Part shown: positions 2,658-11,306 of the stretch, in pieces
How the letters are laid out: each line of letters begins with the position of its first letter
Position numbering within the stretch: position 1 is the first letter of the stretch
Assembly (NCBI GenBank): GCA_001899315.1
Contig: MOYA01000001.1
Coordinates: 993,105 to 1,057,104 of the forward strand
Reading direction: 5' to 3'
DNA from: Candidatus Obscuribacter phosphatis
GTDB lineage: Bacteria; Cyanobacteriota; Vampirovibrionia; Obscuribacterales; Obscuribacteraceae
Length of the DNA stretch: 64,000 nucleotides
The notes under the pieces: model-generated
Database searches by the model: none
What the model was told of the DNA's origin: nothing
Seen by the model: only the letters and a program-made list of their open reading frames with translations
Position numbers and translations under genes: made by a program

Positions 2658-3635
2658 CTAAGGGGGGCTATCGTTGCTGAATTCTTGAACGCAGTAGACC
2701 GTGCGAGGCATTATCACAGCCACTCCTACCCCCACCACTCTGTGTCTGGGATTGAGAATATTGGCGCGGTGATTGGTTGGGTCTTCGGGTGGTTCATTCA
2801 TAAAATTGAACTGCACCTTCTCGACTATTTTAGGGAAGTCGTAGAAATCTTTTTGCCAGCCGATATTTTCCCATACACCAGCGGCGATACCAGCCTCTCT
2901 GACTCGATCCATCGGCATTCGTCCTTCTGGATCTCGGTGATCAAAAAAGCCACGTTTGGCCATATCTTCGGCATAAGCGCGAGCCAGTCGGCTTAAAGAT
3001 GTGCTTTTAGCAACGGGTGGAAGCCCGCATGTGTTGCGGTCTCTATTGATTAGTTGCAGCATATGATCTTCAAGCGCATCGATATTTGGTTTTGGTCTGT
3101 CGGCAATATCGCCGCCTACTTCTTCTTCCTCTTCTTGAGGCGGGGTTTCTCCCGACATTCGCACTTTAGGCTTAATAACTTGGGGGGTGTAACCTTGGAA
3201 GCTCACCAGGCAGTTAATAGTGCTGATTTTGCTGCCTCTTTGTCTGGCAATACTGGCCTTAAGATTGCCGGCGTTGCGCTTTTGCAAGATAAAGTCTGCC
3301 GCGGGACCGGAGTCGAGTCCTTTGCCATCGAGGGTCAAAAGTACATCACGGGGGGAAAGCCCTAAATCGTTGGCGATGCCGCTGCCGGTCAGGCCGGTTA
3401 CATAAAATCCCCTGACTCTCTTGCCCTGAATGAGCACGGCGGCCGGCACACCCCAAGCACCAAGCGCCTTTGAAACGGTCTGAGCATTTGAGAGTCCATA
3501 GATAGGCTGAGGCGATTTGCCGGCCTTTGCCTCTTGTAGGCTAATTGCTATAAAACTGAAAACTAGCAAAGCCAATAGCGCGGCGATAGATGCAGAATTT
3601 ACTTTCTTTCGATTGACATTTTTTGAGGTCGCCAT
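2658..3635 (-). CDS. Secreted CAP/SCP-domain protein with PDZ-like N-terminal domain
   Basis: 325 residues. The N-terminus is basic followed by a hydrophobic stretch (about 15-35) ending near QEAKAG, so a signal peptide or anchor is likely. Residues about 60-150 look PDZ-like (GSGIANDLGLSPRDVLLTLD). An acidic spacer with a run of Glu follows. The C-terminal half is a CAP domain (SCP/PR-1/YkwD family): INRDRNTCGLPPV, then LARAYAEDMAKRGFFDH, ENIGW and HRANILNPRHRVVGVGV, which carry the conserved His/Glu positions of the cavity. Bacterial CAP proteins are mostly extracytoplasmic with unclear biochemistry. The PDZ-like domain could bind a peptide partner. Stop TAG is at 2658-2660. The gene stands alone on its strand with short gaps on either side. 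Confidence 0.85.
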   Translation of the reverse strand: MATSKNVNRKKVNSASIAALLALLVFSFIAISLQEAKAGKSPQPIYGLSNAQTVSKALGAWGVPAAVLIQGKRVRGFYVTGLTGSGIANDLGLSPRDVLLTLDGKGLDSGPAADFILQKRNAGNLKASIARQRGSKISTINCLVSFQGYTPQVIKPKVRMSGETPPQEEEEEVGGDIADRPKPNIDALEDHMLQLINRDRNTCGLPPVAKSTSLSRLARAYAEDMAKRGFFDHRDPEGRMPMDRVREAGIAAGVWENIGWQKDFYDFPKIVEKVQFNFMNEPPEDPTNHRANILNPRHRVVGVGVAVIMPRTVYCVQEFSNDSPP

Positions 3636-3733: not shown

Positions 3734-5374
3734 CTATTTCAGGCGCCTCAGCGCTCTTTCGGCGCCGTAGTGGGCTGCGACATAGGCATTTTCCAGACAT
3801 TGCACGCCAAAGAGGCTGGAATGATTGAGGGTGTAGACGGGATTGTTCCTTCCCGCATAAAGTAGATTCTCCAGCCTTCTAAAATAGCCCGGTATCGGCG
3901 CCGCCATGGCATGCCCCCAACGGGTCGGCACCACTGCTTCTATTGTCGACATCTCAAGACCGGTTCTGTTGCTAAGTTCGTGGGCCACCTGTGTAAGCAA
4001 TTCAACCCTATCGCTGCCGAAAAGCAGGCTTCGCCCTTGCGAGCCGGGTTGGAAGGGGCTATAGACTGTGAGAATAGAACCCATGGAGGGCTTGTAGCTG
4101 CCTGTACTTTTTAAGACTAGTTCAGCTGGAATAAAGTCGTTGATTAAGGATGTTTCCGCCGCTGTGTCGCTCAAGTTGAAGTTCTCAAAATTGGAGAATT
4201 GTTTCGACTCATTCTGATAGATAAAGTTTGAAACAAGATAAGAGCCATATCTAAAGCTAAAGAGCGGTCCCTTTTCAGCATTTGATACACCCTGAAGAAT
4301 TCTGCCCGCTACTATGGGCGGTGCGGCAATAATTACATGTTTGCAGGTGATTTTTCTTATGCTGTCCTGCGCTTGATAAATAACTTCGGCGCCGTCGCCC
4401 TTCACTTGTACCGACCAGACAAAGGCGTTTCTGCTTATATGTTCGTCTAGACGGGCTGCCAGAGCCTTTGAAATGGCTCCATTGCCTCCTGGAAAAGCGT
4501 AAATCGTTTCAAACAGATCTTGTAATAAGTAAAGCCCTGCCAGTGCTGAAATCTCGGCGGCAGTTAGACAGATAGAGGAAAGAAGAAAACGATCAATGAA
4601 TCTGAGAAAGGGCTCACCGAAGCCTGTCAGGACCTCCGCCAGCCTAATGCCGTCTAGTTTGCTTTGCTCAGGCTTGACGCCAGCGATAACTGAGATGGCT
4701 CCTGCTTCGTTATAGCCTTTGAGAAGCTTACCTAACTCAAACAAGTCTTTTGCAAAGCGGCTATCTTTTGGAACTTTGCTTTCGGCAAGATTGATTTTCT
4801 CTCTGTTATCAAAAATCAGGTCCATCGGTCTGAGCCCCGAGCAAACCGGATTCAAACCTAGTTCCAGCAAAAGTGGATTGACAAGTTCTAAGTCGCAAAA
4901 GTAAGCAGCGCCCAGAGAGTAGGGCAGCCCCTTTCTTTCTTCGAGACTGCTTTGTCCGCCGGGATTGCCTGCTTCAAGCAAGACAGTCTTGTAGTTTCTC
5001 AGTTTGTAAGCTGTTATCAGTCCGGTGATGCCTCCGCCGACAATTACGAAGTCTGCCGAATCTGAAGTTTCGAGTTTGCCTAGATTACTTGGCTTGCATA
5101 AGTCGGGTAGATTCCCGTCTCTTAAGGCATGACCTCTGTCTGGGTCGTCACCTCGGTATGGCTCTATATTGAGGGCTTGCTCTAGGCGTGTATTTTGGGC
5201 TCTTGTATTTTCGGCTCGTGTATTTTCGGCTCGAGTTTTCTCTGTAATCGCTTGTTCTGAGAGAGTTTTCTCGCCGGCCGCCGCCCGAGGCTCCCAACCG
5301 AACATACTAAAGGCCGATAGAGCCACGAGCTCTTTCAAGAAATGGCGTCTGTTTTTGATTTCCTGAATATTCAT
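3734..5374 (-). CDS. Tat-exported FAD-dependent amine-oxidase-like oxidoreductase
   Basis: 546 residues from ATG 5374; a GTG 24 bases upstream adds eight residues but places the signal less well. The N-terminus NRRHFLKELVALSAF is a twin-arginine (Tat) signal, which fits export of a folded flavoprotein. Next comes a linker made of 15-nt repeats coding ENTRA (bases about 5185-5245). The Rossmann FAD motif is VIVGGGITGLITAYKL, followed by the GG doublet region LLEAGNPGGQSS. The C-terminal MAAPIPGYFRRLENLLYAGR and the closing AHYGAERALRRL fit the FAD-binding end of flavin-containing amine oxidases and carotenoid/protoporphyrinogen oxidase relatives. The substrate cannot be read from the sequence. 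It is transcribed alone and opposite to the following carboxylase gene. Confidence 0.82.
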   Translation of the reverse strand: MNIQEIKNRRHFLKELVALSAFSMFGWEPRAAAGEKTLSEQAITEKTRAENTRAENTRAQNTRLEQALNIEPYRGDDPDRGHALRDGNLPDLCKPSNLGKLETSDSADFVIVGGGITGLITAYKLRNYKTVLLEAGNPGGQSSLEERKGLPYSLGAAYFCDLELVNPLLLELGLNPVCSGLRPMDLIFDNREKINLAESKVPKDSRFAKDLFELGKLLKGYNEAGAISVIAGVKPEQSKLDGIRLAEVLTGFGEPFLRFIDRFLLSSICLTAAEISALAGLYLLQDLFETIYAFPGGNGAISKALAARLDEHISRNAFVWSVQVKGDGAEVIYQAQDSIRKITCKHVIIAAPPIVAGRILQGVSNAEKGPLFSFRYGSYLVSNFIYQNESKQFSNFENFNLSDTAAETSLINDFIPAELVLKSTGSYKPSMGSILTVYSPFQPGSQGRSLLFGSDRVELLTQVAHELSNRTGLEMSTIEAVVPTRWGHAMAAPIPGYFRRLENLLYAGRNNPVYTLNHSSLFGVQCLENAYVAAHYGAERALRRLK

Positions 5375-5603: not shown

Positions 5604-7193
5604 ATGGACAATACCGTAAAAGGAACTTCGGCAAAAGGAAATTCGGCTGTGGAAACAAAACGTGAGAACCTACGTGAGAACCTTATTGATGCCATCAATC
5701 GCATCAAACAGGGCGGTGCACCAAAGTATCACCAAAAGTTGAAAGAAGAGAACAAACTTTTTGTGCGCGATCGTCTGAAACTTCTTCTCGACCCTGGTTT
5801 CGAAGTCGAAGATGCACGCTTTGCCAATTGCCGAGATAAAGAACTTCCAGCTGACGGAGTCGTCACCGGTGTCGGTCAGATAGAAGGCAAAACAGTTTGC
5901 TTCATGGCCAATGACTCTACTGTTAAGGCCGGCTCTTGGGGCTGGCGCACAGTCGAGAAAATCATTCGAATTCAAGAGACTGCCGCAAAGCTCAAAGTGC
6001 CAATGATCTATTTGGTTGACTCAGCTGGGGCTCGTATTACAGATCAGATCGAAATGTTCCCGGGTCGCCGCGGCGCTGGCCGCATTTTTCACAACCAGGT
6101 CCAGCTTTCCGGATATATTCCTCAGATTTGCTTGCTTTTCGGACCTTCGGCTGCAGGGGGTGCCTACATTCCAGCCTTCTGCGATGTGATCATCATGAAT
6201 GAAGGCCGGGCTTCCATGTATCTCGGTTCGCCTCGTATGGCAGAAATGGTCATAGGCGAGAAAGTGACGCTGGAAGAGATGGGCGGTGCCAAGATGCACT
6301 GCTCGGTGAGCGGCGTGGGCGATGTCTTGGTCAAATCAGAAGAGGAAGCCATCCAACTCTGCAAAGACTATTTGCGTTTCATGCCCAGCAACTGTGATCA
6401 TAAGGTGCCGAATCTCTCTGCAATAGAGCCAAAAACACAAGAAAAGAATCTCGAGCAGGTAATCCCTGAGAAAGAGAGTGTCACCTTTGACATGTATCAA
6501 GTTATCGACCGCTTGATCGACGAAGGCTCTTGGTTTGAAATGAAAAAGCTATTCGCCTCCGAGCTAATCACCGGTTTCGGCCGAATCGGCGGACGCGCTG
6601 TCGGTATAGTAGCCAATCAACCCCGTGTCAAAGGCGGTGTGCTCTTCGTTGATTCAGCCGATAAAGCCTCAAGATTTGTCTGGCTTTGTGATGCCTTCAA
6701 TATTCCTCTTCTTTTCCTCGCCGATGTTCCTGGTTTCATGATTGGCACTAAAGTCGAGAGAGACGGCATAATCCGTGCCGGCGCCAAAATGGTCTCCGCT
6801 GTTTCTTCAGCAACCGTTCCAAAGATTTCTGTGGTTGTGCGCAAAGCCTACGGGGCTGGTCTTTATGCTATGTGCGGACCGGCCTTCGAACCAGACGCCT
6901 GCTTAGCTCTTCCAACTGCTTGGATAGCTGTGATGGGACCAGAGGCCGCAGTCAATGCTGTCTACTTCAACAAGATAATGGAACTACCCGAGTCTGAGCG
7001 TCCTGCTTTTGTTGAGCAGAAGCGCGCCGAGTACCGCGAGGACGTAGATCTTTATAAACTCGCTGCTGAATTGGTTGTCGATGATATCGTTCACCCACTT
7101 TCGCTACGCAACGAACTGATTGCAAGATTCAATGCTTACGAGTCCAAAGAACAAGCGGGCTATAAGAAGAAGCGCAGCGTTTTGCAAGTTTAG
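5604..7193 (+). CDS. Acyl-CoA carboxylase, carboxyltransferase (beta) subunit
   Basis: 529 residues, the usual length for PccB/MccB/AccD5-type biotin-dependent carboxyltransferases. The paired crotonase-like halves are both visible. The N-terminal half has YLVDSAGARITDQ and LLFGPSAAGGAYIPAFCDV; the C-terminal half has LADVPGFMIGTKVERDG, RKAYGAGLYAMCGPAFEPD and VMGPEAAVNAVY. These form the acyl-CoA and carboxybiotin sites. The likely reaction is carboxylation of propionyl-CoA or a related short acyl-CoA, but substrate choice (propionyl, acetyl, methylcrotonyl) is not certain. The biotin carboxylase/BCCP subunit is not in this window. The start is ATG after GTGAGGCTCT, a leader shared with the gene at 35149. 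The B12-riboswitch thioesterase on the opposite strand is convergent with it. Confidence 0.9.
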   Translation: MDNTVKGTSAKGNSAVETKRENLRENLIDAINRIKQGGAPKYHQKLKEENKLFVRDRLKLLLDPGFEVEDARFANCRDKELPADGVVTGVGQIEGKTVCFMANDSTVKAGSWGWRTVEKIIRIQETAAKLKVPMIYLVDSAGARITDQIEMFPGRRGAGRIFHNQVQLSGYIPQICLLFGPSAAGGAYIPAFCDVIIMNEGRASMYLGSPRMAEMVIGEKVTLEEMGGAKMHCSVSGVGDVLVKSEEEAIQLCKDYLRFMPSNCDHKVPNLSAIEPKTQEKNLEQVIPEKESVTFDMYQVIDRLIDEGSWFEMKKLFASELITGFGRIGGRAVGIVANQPRVKGGVLFVDSADKASRFVWLCDAFNIPLLFLADVPGFMIGTKVERDGIIRAGAKMVSAVSSATVPKISVVVRKAYGAGLYAMCGPAFEPDACLALPTAWIAVMGPEAAVNAVYFNKIMELPESERPAFVEQKRAEYREDVDLYKLAAELVVDDIVHPLSLRNELIARFNAYESKEQAGYKKKRSVLQV

Positions 7194-7286
7194 CCGTCTT
7201 TGGTTAGCAAGCTGAGACAAGCTGTCGAAATCGGTCGATTGCACCTTGTTTTGCAAGCTTAGGTTCGATTCGTTATTCAAGTTAAA

Positions 7287-7316
7287 GAGGAAGAGACTTC
7301 TATCAGTCTCTTCCTC
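7287..7316. terminator. Hairpin terminator between carboxylase and thioesterase
   Basis: A perfect 12-bp stem (7287-7298 with 7305-7316) and a 6-nt loop, followed on the plus strand by a pyrimidine-rich tract with T runs. It sits between convergent genes and probably ends the carboxylase transcript. Confidence 0.7.
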
Positions 7317-7335
7317 TCTTCTTTTCTATTGGCTA

Positions 7336-7366
7336 ACCGATTACGCTGCTTTATAGCGTAATCGGT
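7336..7366 (-). terminator. Hairpin over the thioesterase stop codon
   Basis: A perfect 12-bp stem (7336-7347 with 7355-7366) and a 7-nt loop. It contains the last codons of the thioesterase, with the stop codon TAA in the loop edge. No strong U-tract follows on the minus strand, so it may be a 3'-end stabiliser instead of a simple intrinsic terminator. Confidence 0.5.
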
Positions 7367-7794
7367 CTATTGTCAGGGTCTACGGCCACAAGCACGAACT
7401 TTCCTCTGGCGCAAAGTTGTCTGTCTCCAGTTAGAAGATTCTCTCCAACCATATCAACCGATACAGTCACTGATGTCCTTCCCACCTTTTCAATTCTGCC
7501 CACAAGTTCGACTAAGTGTCCGGTCTTTACTGGTGTCTTGAAATCAACCTTCTCAGAAGATGCTGTCACCATAGCTTTTCTCGTGAATCTTGAGGCTGTA
7601 ATAAAAGCACTCTTATCCATTAACTCAAGCGCATGACCACCAAAAAGAGTTCCATAGTGATTGGTTTGGTTAGGAAAAACCATCTCGCACATCCGAGTCT
7701 CCATTGTTGAATCTTCAGAAGACTCGAAAAGCAGGGCGTTATCTCTATTCTGAGTTGTAGTTTCTTTCGGTGTTAAACAAGTTTTTCGCGGCAT
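7351..7794 (-). CDS. Hotdog-fold acyl-CoA thioesterase under B12 riboswitch control
   Basis: 147 residues from ATG 7794, which has a perfect AGGAGG seven bases upstream. The longer open frame reaching 7932 only translates the riboswitch. The protein is a single hotdog domain of the YciA/ACOT type: NHYGTLFGGHALELMDKSAF carries the N/GG/D pattern around the catalytic helix, followed by SSEKVDFKTPVKTGHLVELV and a C-terminal strand ARGKFVLVAVD. Such enzymes hydrolyse acyl-CoA to free acid and CoA in the cytoplasm. The leader is a compact cobalamin riboswitch. Together with the neighbouring acyl-CoA carboxylase this suggests a role when coenzyme B12 is scarce, for example releasing CoA from propionyl- or methylmalonyl-CoA; that role is inference. 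It appears monocistronic. Confidence 0.88.
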   Translation of the reverse strand: MPRKTCLTPKETTTQNRDNALLFESSEDSTMETRMCEMVFPNQTNHYGTLFGGHALELMDKSAFITASRFTRKAMVTASSEKVDFKTPVKTGHLVELVGRIEKVGRTSVTVSVDMVGENLLTGDRQLCARGKFVLVAVDPDNRPITL

Positions 7795-7799
7795 AAATC

Positions 7800-7932
7800 C
7801 TCCTTGCCTCGAAGAGGTAATTGCAAATTCATTCAGGTGGGTAGCCTGGCTAGCTAAGAGCATTACAGTTGCGGGACAGCGGTGGAATTGCACCACACTT
7901 CCCCCACCAAACGGCAAACAGTTGTCTGCCAT
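7800..7932 (-). ncRNA. Compact cobalamin (B12) riboswitch
   Basis: Read on the minus strand. The leader contains GTGGTGCAATTCCACC, then GCTGTCCCGCAACTGTAA (core, about 7868-7896), then the B12-box-like AGCCAGGCTACCCACC (about 7836-7851). These are the conserved cobalamin-aptamer core elements in order. The large peripheral GCCACTG/GGGAAGGC part of long-form riboswitches is absent, with only about 11 bases between core and B12 box, which points to a short class-II type. Loop L5 (UGCAAUU, 7886-7892) can kiss UUUGCAAUU (7819-7827). The latter lies in a hairpin formed by CCUGAA and UUCGAGG just before the AGGAGG ribosome site. The expected control is translational repression by ligand. A hairpin at 7912-7929 opens the element. 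Confidence 0.88.
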
Positions 7933-8212
7933 TCCGAAGTTTTTCTGAATGAGTTCATTTTGGTCAGCAGCAATGTGTTTATGACATTGCCTCGGACCAC
8001 GCTAAGTTTATCACTAAGCTGATTCATAGTTTTTTTGGACTTGGCTTCTCGAACGCTTGACTGTAAGAGGCTGCAATCGCCATCTGATTTTCTGGAGGCT
8101 ATTTATTGATTCCTTGGGCGCCTCTTCTAGATCTGGACTTTTTGCGGAGATTAAATTTGGAGCTTATTTTGAACTTTTTGAACAGCTTTTACGTTGTTAG
8201 TTATAGAGGAAC
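7933..8212. other. Divergent intergenic region
   Basis: Holds the unassigned promoters of the riboswitch-thioesterase transcript (minus) and the DUF6088-like gene (plus). A short inverted repeat CAATGT/ACATTG lies at 7970-7988. I see no gene or further RNA. Confidence 0.4.
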
Positions 8213-8247
8213 AAAAAAAAAGATTTTCTCGAGAATTTCTTTTTTTT
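8213..8247 (+). promoter_or_regulatory. Terminator-like palindrome in a gene leader
   Basis: An A9 run, arms around a central CTCGAG with two T/T mismatches, then a T run. It ends two bases before the AGAGGAG ribosome site of the gene at 8260. No plus-strand gene ends within the preceding kilobase, so it looks like a leader attenuator or an insulator, not the end of a gene. Its core matches the palindrome at 24999-25046. Confidence 0.5.
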
Positions 8248-8259
8248 AGAGGAGATTGT

Positions 8260-9063
8260 ATGAACATAGATGAGAAACAAAATTCAGAAAAGCGTCCCTA
8301 TCGTAAGAATCAGTTGTCCTATGTTGTCCGTTATATTGCAATGCTGCCACCGGGACAGATTTTTACGACGCGAGAATTGCTGCAATTTGTAGAGCGTCGA
8401 GCTCCGCTAGACTATTTTCTTTGCATGCAAGTCAAATCTGGGGTTCTGGAGAGACTCGCGCGGGGGGTCTTCAGAAGGTTTCGCAAGAGTAATCGGATTA
8501 TTCCAGATGCCGAGATTTCGGGAATCAAACGATTTGCGTTTGCCGGAAGATGCTTGACGACTGGGTCTCTGGCGAATTCAAATAAGAGCGAAGAAATTAC
8601 TCTTTATACTCAAAAGCAAGCGCAGAATCACGAGAGAAACCATGAGAACAACGCCAGCTTTGTGAGTCTTGCTGGAAGTTCGAATTTCCTGAGTCAACAG
8701 TTAATTAACTTCGATTTTGATACTGGATATTCGATTCGTTTCTCTAGGATCAAGATGAAAGCCGTAGGTAATCGAAAGTCGCTTCTGGGAGAGACCAAAG
8801 CAGGTCGAATCTTTAGGGATATTTGGCTGAGAGGGGAGGACCTCTGCACTCAAGAAATAGTAAGGACGGCATATGCAAGTCTAAGTAGAAAAGATCGTCA
8901 AGTTGTCGCCTCACTGCGGCAATTCTTGCCTCAGTGGATCAGTGATAAGTTGCCTCTTTCTCCGAGTGATGTTTTGCAGATCCTATTGTCGCGACCAGCA
9001 AATCTCAAGAATGGTCGGACCCGAGATTACAAAGTTCCTGGTAGTCGATTCTATGCGCGATGA
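8260..9063 (+). CDS. DUF6088/AbiEi-like winged-helix protein (orphan)
   Basis: 267 residues from ATG 8260, chosen because AGAGGAG lies five bases upstream; an earlier in-frame start would read through the leader hairpin. The N-terminal region about 15-85 (PPGQIFTTRELLQF, then SGVLERLARGVFRR) resembles the winged helix of DUF6088/AbiEi-type antitoxins, where the arginine-rich 'LARGxF/Y' segment follows the recognition helix. A glycine/serine stretch and an Asn/His-rich spacer follow. The C-terminal part has no fold I recognise. Type IV antitoxins are normally next to an AbiEii nucleotidyltransferase toxin; none is adjacent, so this is an orphan or has another role. The domain assignment is by eye and only moderately firm. 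Confidence 0.65.
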   Translation: MNIDEKQNSEKRPYRKNQLSYVVRYIAMLPPGQIFTTRELLQFVERRAPLDYFLCMQVKSGVLERLARGVFRRFRKSNRIIPDAEISGIKRFAFAGRCLTTGSLANSNKSEEITLYTQKQAQNHERNHENNASFVSLAGSSNFLSQQLINFDFDTGYSIRFSRIKMKAVGNRKSLLGETKAGRIFRDIWLRGEDLCTQEIVRTAYASLSRKDRQVVASLRQFLPQWISDKLPLSPSDVLQILLSRPANLKNGRTRDYKVPGSRFYAR

Positions 9064-9080: not shown

Positions 9081-11306
9081 TTAGGGACCGAAGGGCGAAC
9101 CAAATAGAGAAGCGGCGTGCGACGAGGAATTGTAGAATTTCTCGAATTCAGACTTGTTTGCAAAGAATTGAGATTGGGGGAGCGCTCTTAGTCTTTCGGT
9201 ATTTGTGGCAAGTTCTTTCATGTATTGAGAGAAGAGAATTGAAAGGTCATCTAGTTTCTTTTCAAAAACTGCCTCTATAAAATATTCGTATCCCTTTTTG
9301 TTGTTTGACTCCACGAGCTTCAGGAATTGCTTGAGCTTGCCATGTTTGATTAGGAATAGGGCGACTTGTCTTTGTTCGTATTCATGCTCTGCGTTGGCGT
9401 GCTTCGCTTTTGTGACTATGTCTTTCAAGAGTAGTGCCACTCTCTCTTTCCCGCCCATATGTTTGGGTATCCAGACTTCAGGTAGTCCCAAGATTAAGAG
9501 GAGAGAGCTTACCTGCCCTGTGGTTTTGGGATAGCCCCAAAGCTGGTCGAAAATAGTTGGAACTCCTTCTTCCGCCCAGAAGTCCAGTTGCTTGTATTCC
9601 CCTAAAACCGTATGCATTAATTCATGGAAAAGTATTTCGATACCAACACCATCGAAAGTGACTACGGCATTCGTTCCTGCTAGATAGACTCCTTGTACCT
9701 TGCTATAAAAACCCATCTTTTGTTGGAGAAAGTTTCGGGATGTGGGTTTGTCATGGAAGATAAATACTGATCTGGGGAAATTTCCCTTTACCTTTATCAG
9801 GTTTCGATCTGCGAAATTGATGAATGCTTCTGAGATTTCGGCATAGTAGTTAAGTCGGCTTTCTTCGATATCTCCATAAAGAATGAAATGGGGGGTCAAG
9901 ACAGCTGAGGGCATCTGTCCTGCTACTAAATCTGGAATCGTTACTTTTCGGTCTGGGAGTGGTCCAAGTCCGCGACCGTTCAGTGAGAGTTTGAGAGAGG
10001 CTGCACCGTCGGTAGCACTTCTTGCAATATCTCCTTGCTTTAGAGCAATTTGAGCACTAAGAGCCAGTGCTTCAAAAAAGATTTTGTTTCCAGCTAAGCT
10101 GATGCATTCGTTTATTGTCTTACGAGCTTCTGCTAGGTCGTCTAAATTGAACAAAGCTTGAGCCAGGTAATAGCTGGCTATAGAACTGCGATTGTTGAGT
10201 GCAAGGGCTTTTTGGGCATCTTCTTTTGCTTCTTGCGATTTGCCTAGTTGCAGATAAATCTTGGCTCTCGCAAGTAGACATTCGAAAGAGTTCGAGTTCT
10301 TTGAAAGTGCCTTGTTTAGCAACTCTAATGCCTTGCTATTCTCATTTGATAAAGCCAAAGATTGCGCGTACAAGTAAAGAAGTTCGGGGCTTGAGCTAGC
10401 ATTTTCGGGAGTGTCACTCTGAAGAGTCTTTTCGGTAGCAGACTCCGCGCTCTTATCCACGCTTAAATCTGCTTTCTCAGCGCTTATAAGCTGGCTGAGA
10501 AAAGTTTTTGCTGCGTCAGTCATTCCTAGTTCGAGAAAACCACGAGCAGTCAATGCGGCGATTTCTGAATCGGCTTTGTCTTTGGCAATTATCTCGGCTA
10601 AATTTTTAAATGTAGCTGAAGCCGCCACCATATCGGACTTACGGCACTGCGCAATTGCGATTCGGAGCCAGGCTTCGCTAGCGCCCTTGTGGAGGCTAAC
10701 TGCTGCATTGAAATCTTTTAGAGCTTTTCGGTAAGCCGAGCAGGCGAAGTAAACCTGTCCTCGCGCCAACAAGAGAGCTACTTCTCTCTCAATATTTCTA
10801 GATGGCTCAGTATTTCTGGCAGACTCAGTACTTTTAGTTGGATTTGTACTTTTAGCTAGCTCACTGTTTCTATTAAGCTCAGTATTTTTAGCTAGCTCTT
10901 TATTGAAGAATTGAATCCCTTCCCAGTACTTTCGGCTTTTGATGAAGCCGGCAGTGATTTCTTTCAATTCTTCCTTACTGTAGGATGAGACCTTCGCCGA
11001 TTCTGTCTTTGAATCTGGCTTTGAATCTGGCTTTGAATCTGGCTTTGATTCTGGCTTTGAATCTGGCTTTGAATCTGTCTTTGATTCTGTCTTTGAATCT
11101 GTTTTTGAATCTGGCTGTGCTTCTGTCATCGCCTCTTCTGCATAGACTAGCGGCGCTGCACAGAAAATGCAGGTTATACAGAACATGCAGATCATACAGA
11201 ACATACAGACCATGCAGGACACGCATAACGAATAGACCCGGTAGACCAGAGATACTAGACAGTTTACGCCGGGTGGGCCGACCTTGAAACTCGATGAGAG
11301 AATCAC
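9081..11306 (-). CDS. TPR protein with zinc metallopeptidase (peptidase-MA-like) domain
   Basis: 741 residues. The start is GTG 11306, overlapping the stop of the msbA-like gene by four bases, so it is the third gene of lpxB-msbA-this. The signal/anchor segment is odd: 9-nt repeats code Cys-Met-hydrophobic triplets with a Cys at every third residue (about 11160-11225). A 12-nt repeat coding Asp-Ser-Lys-Pro/Thr follows (about 11001-11115). The middle contains TPR-like repeats (about 110-440). The C-terminal part has HELMHTVLGEY and WAEEGVPTIFD, a gluzincin-type HExxH plus downstream Glu, so zinc peptidase activity is likely. Expected location is periplasm or outer face of the membrane. Its place in a lipid A operon suggests an envelope role; substrate unknown. 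Confidence 0.8.
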   Translation of the reverse strand: MILSSSFKVGPPGVNCLVSLVYRVYSLCVSCMVCMFCMICMFCITCIFCAAPLVYAEEAMTEAQPDSKTDSKTESKTDSKPDSKPESKPDSKPDSKPDSKTESAKVSSYSKEELKEITAGFIKSRKYWEGIQFFNKELAKNTELNRNSELAKSTNPTKSTESARNTEPSRNIEREVALLLARGQVYFACSAYRKALKDFNAAVSLHKGASEAWLRIAIAQCRKSDMVAASATFKNLAEIIAKDKADSEIAALTARGFLELGMTDAAKTFLSQLISAEKADLSVDKSAESATEKTLQSDTPENASSSPELLYLYAQSLALSNENSKALELLNKALSKNSNSFECLLARAKIYLQLGKSQEAKEDAQKALALNNRSSIASYYLAQALFNLDDLAEARKTINECISLAGNKIFFEALALSAQIALKQGDIARSATDGAASLKLSLNGRGLGPLPDRKVTIPDLVAGQMPSAVLTPHFILYGDIEESRLNYYAEISEAFINFADRNLIKVKGNFPRSVFIFHDKPTSRNFLQQKMGFYSKVQGVYLAGTNAVVTFDGVGIEILFHELMHTVLGEYKQLDFWAEEGVPTIFDQLWGYPKTTGQVSSLLLILGLPEVWIPKHMGGKERVALLLKDIVTKAKHANAEHEYEQRQVALFLIKHGKLKQFLKLVESNNKKGYEYFIEAVFEKKLDDLSILFSQYMKELATNTERLRALPQSQFFANKSEFEKFYNSSSHAASLFGSPFGP

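Follow-up and report, generated by a model that had tools for sequence, protein, structure and literature searches.

Why should a cobalamin (B12) riboswitch stand in front of a single acyl-CoA thioesterase gene? The question is raised by a locus in the window, a 64,000-nucleotide stretch of the genome of Candidatus Obscuribacter phosphatis, a relative of the cyanobacteria. B12 riboswitches are thought to control the making or importing of B12, or the means of doing without it. In a comparative survey, their targets comprised biosynthesis, transporters, cobalt and isozymes (PMC3766115). We found no link between a B12 riboswitch and an acyl-CoA thioesterase in the open-access literature, which is weak evidence of novelty. 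Neither the riboswitch nor the enzyme fold is new; the regulated function appears to be undescribed. Our reading, to which we give a probability of about 60%, is that the leader is repressed by B12 and that the single thioesterase behind it frees CoA trapped by stalled adenosylcobalamin-dependent acyl-CoA mutases.

The riboswitch and the thioesterase in the window

The leader of the thioesterase gene is a real, compact cobalamin riboswitch (Table 1). A covariance-model search with RF00174 retrieved it at 7953-7819 (-) with 45.3 bits (E 3.6e-8), above the gathering score of 31.5 bits, bearing out the aptamer that had been called from the letters alone in an earlier note. The alignment runs from end to end of the 189-position model, and 66 of its positions, corresponding to the peripheral part, are absent. 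That note had classed the aptamer as a compact class II type; the missing peripheral domain was confirmed, but the best model was RF00174, with a clan relative scoring lower. Since neither RF01482 nor RF01689 matched best, the aptamer is not filed as class II. Its fold has a z-score of -3.3. In the sister species G002, the aptamer is nearly identical, its changes all falling in the P2 hairpin region and at the last base; the DNA on its upstream side has diverged. The conserved aptamer core and the B12 box are those of RF00174 and RF01482 (clan CL00101), switches that also occur in this bacterial family ahead of nrdA, metE and cobalamin genes. The window copy differs in that it controls an acyl-CoA thioesterase; the target classes of the survey do not include this one (PMC3766115). 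Only 24 nt separate the aptamer from the thioesterase ATG, with AAGGAGG between them, as in a 5' leader with an expression platform, and the gene is almost certainly controlled by B12.

The open reading frame originally assigned to the thioesterase, 7351-7932, runs into the aptamer, and the true coding sequence is the shorter one given in Table 1. The protein matches PF03061 (4HBT) at 3.7e-15 and 56.4 bits, against a cut-off of 20.6. Its AlphaFold model shows a confident hotdog domain and a disordered N-terminus, with pLDDT below 50 for residues 1-28, and was matched by Foldseek to the acyl-CoA hydrolases 2eis, 1vpm and 5egl. The hotdog fold and the catalytic Asn/Asp/Thr positions are held in common with 2eis (Thermus), 2gvh (Agrobacterium), 1vpm, 5egl and HI0827/YciA. 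Structural alignment with acyl-CoA hydrolases gave 29-54% identity, and the invariant N45, D60 and T77 correspond to Asn/Asp/Thr positions mutated in studied members. However, unlike YciA and other acyl-CoA hydrolases, the protein has a genus-specific disordered N-terminus, and it falls well below the YciA equivalog cut-off (NF007970, 44 against 162 bits).

Comparison with G002 separates the two parts of the protein. Codons 31-147 differ at 1, 3 and 29 first, second and third positions, respectively, and this excess (29 of 33 differences in third positions) points to purifying selection on the thioesterase domain. The corresponding counts for codons 1-30 are 4, 13 and 12, and the extension is not visibly constrained as protein. 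Where the window has this extension, most other genomes have a terminator and a ribosome-binding-site (RBS) hairpin between platform and gene. Hydrolases of the 4HBT acyl-CoA group are often broad in substrate. The thioesterase family does not allow substrate prediction, and it is the context that points to propionyl-, methylmalonyl- or isobutyryl-CoA.

A terminator-like hairpin comes next after the thioesterase gene (7286-7317), in agreement with the earlier description of this gene as the only one under the riboswitch here. The convergent carboxylase gene, also described then, is indeed present; it provides no functional evidence, and its adjacency to the thioesterase was discarded as an argument for function, being conserved only within genus g1. 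On the other side of the leader, the gene at 8194-9063 (+) encodes a protein with no Pfam or NCBIfam match, which resembles the protein encoded at 2689-3402 (-) of L104 around GVLERLARGVFRR. The gene at 9081-11306 (-) encodes a TPR protein in which a long low-complexity repeat, DSKPDSKTESK, lies close to the N-terminus.

Table 1. Features of the riboswitch–thioesterase locus, in window coordinates
Feature	Position	Strand	Basis
Compact cobalamin (B12) riboswitch aptamer	7819..7953	(-)	RF00174 match, fold z-score, near-identity with G002
Expression-platform module ACCUCUUCGAGGCAAGGAGG	7799..7818	(-)	TTCGAG core shared with relatives; identical in G000 and G002
Hotdog (4HBT) acyl-CoA thioesterase, 147 aa; start ATG 7794	7351..7794	(-)	PF03061; codon-position bias against G002; Foldseek
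N-terminal extension, codons 1-30, genus-specific, predicted disordered	7705..7794	(-)	Codon positions, pLDDT
Terminator-like hairpin separating the thioesterase gene from the convergent carboxylase gene	7286..7317	(.)	13-pair stem; consensus match only
Acyl-CoA carboxylase carboxyltransferase subunit, convergent, outside the conserved unit	5604..7193	(+)	PF01039, 5.3e-158

Expression platform and direction of control

Downstream of the platform module (7818-7799), the leader continues with AUUU and the AUG at 7794. The AAGGAGG within the module (7805-7799) doubles as the Shine-Dalgarno sequence of the thioesterase, 4 nt before the start codon. From the platform through the start codon, the window genome (G000) and G002 are identical. 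Of the 52 B12 aptamers examined in relatives, 34 are followed by the TTCGAG core, independently of the gene they precede; Obscuribacterales B12 aptamers mostly carry a platform module of UUCGAG with GGAGG or AAGAGG. In most relatives, the leader ends in a Rho-independent terminator, and the hairpin within which this is nested covers the ribosome site and start of the thioesterase as well, as expected for B12-repressed expression. The window's genus is without that terminator part, and the thioesterase begins at the platform AAGGAGG itself, the module serving as a Shine-Dalgarno sequence after terminator loss. A leader peptide between platform and thioesterase, apparently conserved by eye in G034, G009 and G030, was rejected because the nucleotide motifs (terminator, RBS hairpin) are kept where the frame is not, frame and start being lost in G006 and G031.

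The only other B12 riboswitch found in the window's genome (L032, G000:C1:2879017-2879142 (-)) precedes a gene for a 943-aa ribonucleotide reductase alpha subunit, of class I type by sequence. Its leader shares the CCUCUUCGAGG module, here with AAGAGG, and probably contains a terminator.

With a single known exception, corrinoid riboswitches are repressive, and in btuB and env8 the ribosome site is hidden in a P13 helix stabilised by a kissing loop (PMC10653944). The CCUC of the window's platform can pair with the GGAGG of the Shine-Dalgarno sequence, which would hide the ribosome site in P13. Covariation in P13 was not beyond that of shuffles (1464 of 2000 at or above native). Nor was the RBS hairpin of the window better than shuffles on folding (z -1.1), so the polarity cannot be read from the fold. 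The kissing loop involving L5 that had been proposed for this leader was not supported as described, given the P13 result and an L5 (UGCAAUU) for which, by eye, a run of just 2-3 pairs is possible with the conserved UUCG loop. Most sister leaders have a GAA or CGAA that could, again by eye, pair. With P13 lacking covariation and L5 a poor partner, the polarity in the window rests on analogy, and by that analogy with known corrinoid riboswitches the thioesterase is very likely repressed by B12. The terminator platform of most relatives resembles that of the P. megaterium metE riboswitch, and the Shine-Dalgarno-containing platform of the window resembles those of E. coli btuB and env8 (PMC10653944). 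In contrast to these systems, one conserved UUCGAGGCAAGGAGG module serves both outputs here, and the kissing loop is only putative.

Recurrence of the pairing

Ten genomes, the window genome included, contained a thioesterase orthologue in a survey of 60 relatives. The orthologue set is sharply bounded, with 60-88% identity to the window thioesterase and the next paralogues at 40% or less. A riboswitch lies directly upstream of the gene in nine of the ten; the exception, G026, has a short ordinary leader with no riboswitch. A genome-wide scan found the pair in four further Obscuribacterales (L109, L111, L113 and L114), whose leaders score best with the AdoCbl model RF01482 (60-66 bits), bringing the total to 13 Obscuribacterales. 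In G009 and G034, metE directly follows the thioesterase gene (identified in G009 by TIGR01371).

The same thioesterase also has a full-length B12 riboswitch in front of it in Pyrinomonas methylaliphatogenes (Acidobacteriota), in Lujinxingia vulgaris and in the Myxococcota G446, G472, G475 and G476. The Pyrinomonas operon reads riboswitch, thioesterase, NrdA, NrdB and MetE, with the last three proteins above NCBIfam cut-offs. Two Myxococcus genomes are a weaker case, the riboswitch lying ~450-600 nt upstream. Their spacer (L241, L242) looks like the N-terminal remnant of a class III aminotransferase such as that in L237, which suggests that a deletion moved the riboswitch next to the thioesterase. 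In L237 (G446), a second B12 riboswitch (4680-4895) is located after the thioesterase and before class III aminotransferase, CoA-transferase and thiolase genes, which perhaps act in lysine degradation around a B12-dependent aminomutase step.

On the protein tree, the linkage label needs seven changes, of which at least three are forced by well-supported branches. Most orthologues outside Obscuribacterales, among them those of Xanthomonadaceae and Nannocystis, have no riboswitch, so the thioesterase also has a life outside B12 control. A search for the same pair in related genomes, suggested in the earlier note, has thus retrieved it in the family and in other phyla. We consider the pairing selected, because nine of the ten family orthologues are linked and other phyla have it too, with full-length aptamers.

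Metabolic setting and possible function

Mutases of PF01642 were detected in all nine linked Obscuribacterales genomes, as well as in Pyrinomonas, Myxococcus and Lujinxingia. Active sites with Tyr/Arg and with Phe/Gln, which we take to mark mutases of the methylmalonyl-CoA and isobutyryl-CoA types, respectively, occur side by side in seven of the nine; in the remaining two genomes, the reading covers one copy. The genus of G026, whose thioesterase is also without a riboswitch, gave no mutase hits. Mutase presence was rejected as a discriminator of linkage, nearly all family members having mutases. PrpB did not exceed its cut-off in any of the nine linked Obscuribacterales genomes, so the methylcitrate escape route seems absent from them. 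In G008 and G020, which have no linked thioesterase, prpBCD lie behind B12 riboswitches (PrpB by TIGR02317, prpC and prpD by sequence inspection). According to the same inspection, B12 riboswitches in these genomes (L034 and L043) also precede an operon for an acyl-CoA dehydrogenase, an enoyl-CoA hydratase family protein and a 3-hydroxyacid dehydrogenase. The acyl-CoA dehydrogenase matched several models of its family, none of them reaching the cut-off. The L034 and L043 riboswitches apparently control B12-independent propionyl-CoA routes and perhaps isobutyryl-CoA routes. Mutual exclusion of the linked thioesterase and PrpB is suggestive, with too few cases for significance, and the myxobacterium G472 has both.

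In the mechanism that we propose, sufficient adenosylcobalamin would stabilise the aptamer and the P13 platform, hiding AAGGAGG and keeping thioesterase production low; the platform of most relatives is the same but ends in a transcription terminator immediately ahead of the gene. A fall in B12 would switch on the thioesterase along with other riboswitch-controlled backups, namely the class I-type ribonucleotide reductase in the window genome and also MetE in relatives. AdoCbl-dependent acyl-CoA mutases of the methylmalonyl-CoA and isobutyryl-CoA types would stall, and the thioesterase would hydrolyse the short or branched acyl-CoAs that are trapped, so that CoA is set free and the acids can leave. 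The B12-independent isoenzymes NrdAB and MetE are under the same switch and, in Pyrinomonas, in the same operon as the thioesterase (metE also in G009 and G034). Unlike them, the thioesterase is no substitute for the B12-dependent step, here the mutase reaction, but would relieve its blockage. The logic of B12 shortage put forward in the earlier note gains support from the conservation of the pair in the family, its recurrence in other phyla and the operons with metE or nrdAB-metE. More tentatively, at somewhat less than even odds, the protein may be a dedicated hydrolase of the methylmalonyl-, propionyl- and/or isobutyryl-CoA that accumulates once AdoCbl-dependent mutases stop. It would then be a third arm, so far unrecognised, of the riboswitch-controlled response to B12 shortage beside NrdAB and MetE, put together independently in at least three bacterial lineages.

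Rearrangements do happen, as illustrated by the two Myxococcus cases with their displaced riboswitch and aminotransferase remnant, and the adjacency might be due to chance or the riboswitch might be decaying and leave the thioesterase unaffected. This is largely refuted by the linkage, which is seen in 13 Obscuribacterales and in several further lineages, and by an aptamer strongly conserved against its flank, and we find it barely credible. An activating riboswitch, its platform rewired in the window's genus so that B12 binding exposes the ribosome site, is improbable as well. It would fit the loss of the relatives' terminator, a local CCUC/GAGG hairpin that would leave AAGGAGG free and a best alternative hairpin that buries the Shine-Dalgarno sequence and AUG, and one activating corrinoid riboswitch is known (PMC10653944). 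However, CCUC can equally pair with the GGAGG of the Shine-Dalgarno sequence itself, terminator-type relatives have almost the same aptamer and platform, and the functions of the co-regulated genes make sense as B12-repressed.

A B12-repressed thioesterase could also serve some other need of B12-starved cells, such as a general adjustment of the fatty-acid and CoA pools, rather than act on mutase substrates. The frequent breadth of this group of hydrolases, the presence in linked operons of metE and nrdAB, genes unrelated to acyl-CoA, and mutases in relatives without a linked thioesterase all agree with this. Yet in sister genomes the same riboswitch stands before B12-independent genes for propionyl-CoA and acyl-CoA metabolism, and the sole riboswitch-free family orthologue (G026) belongs to a genus without mutase hits; we regard a need of this kind as unlikely, though it deserves some weight.

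The locus joins a known riboswitch to a new target that recurs, and its role is most likely the relief of acyl-CoA trapped by idle AdoCbl-dependent mutases. This reading can be tested directly, since it names likely substrates for a subfamily of enzymes that is still uncharacterised. The recurrence of the pairing, once together with B12-independent backup enzymes, suggests a little-noticed part of the bacterial B12-shortage response. In B12-deficient humans, methylmalonic acid is excreted, a counterpart of the damage-control step proposed here. A conserved thioesterase in the B12 set would mean that bacteria, too, exert damage control over metabolites trapped by idle B12 enzymes.
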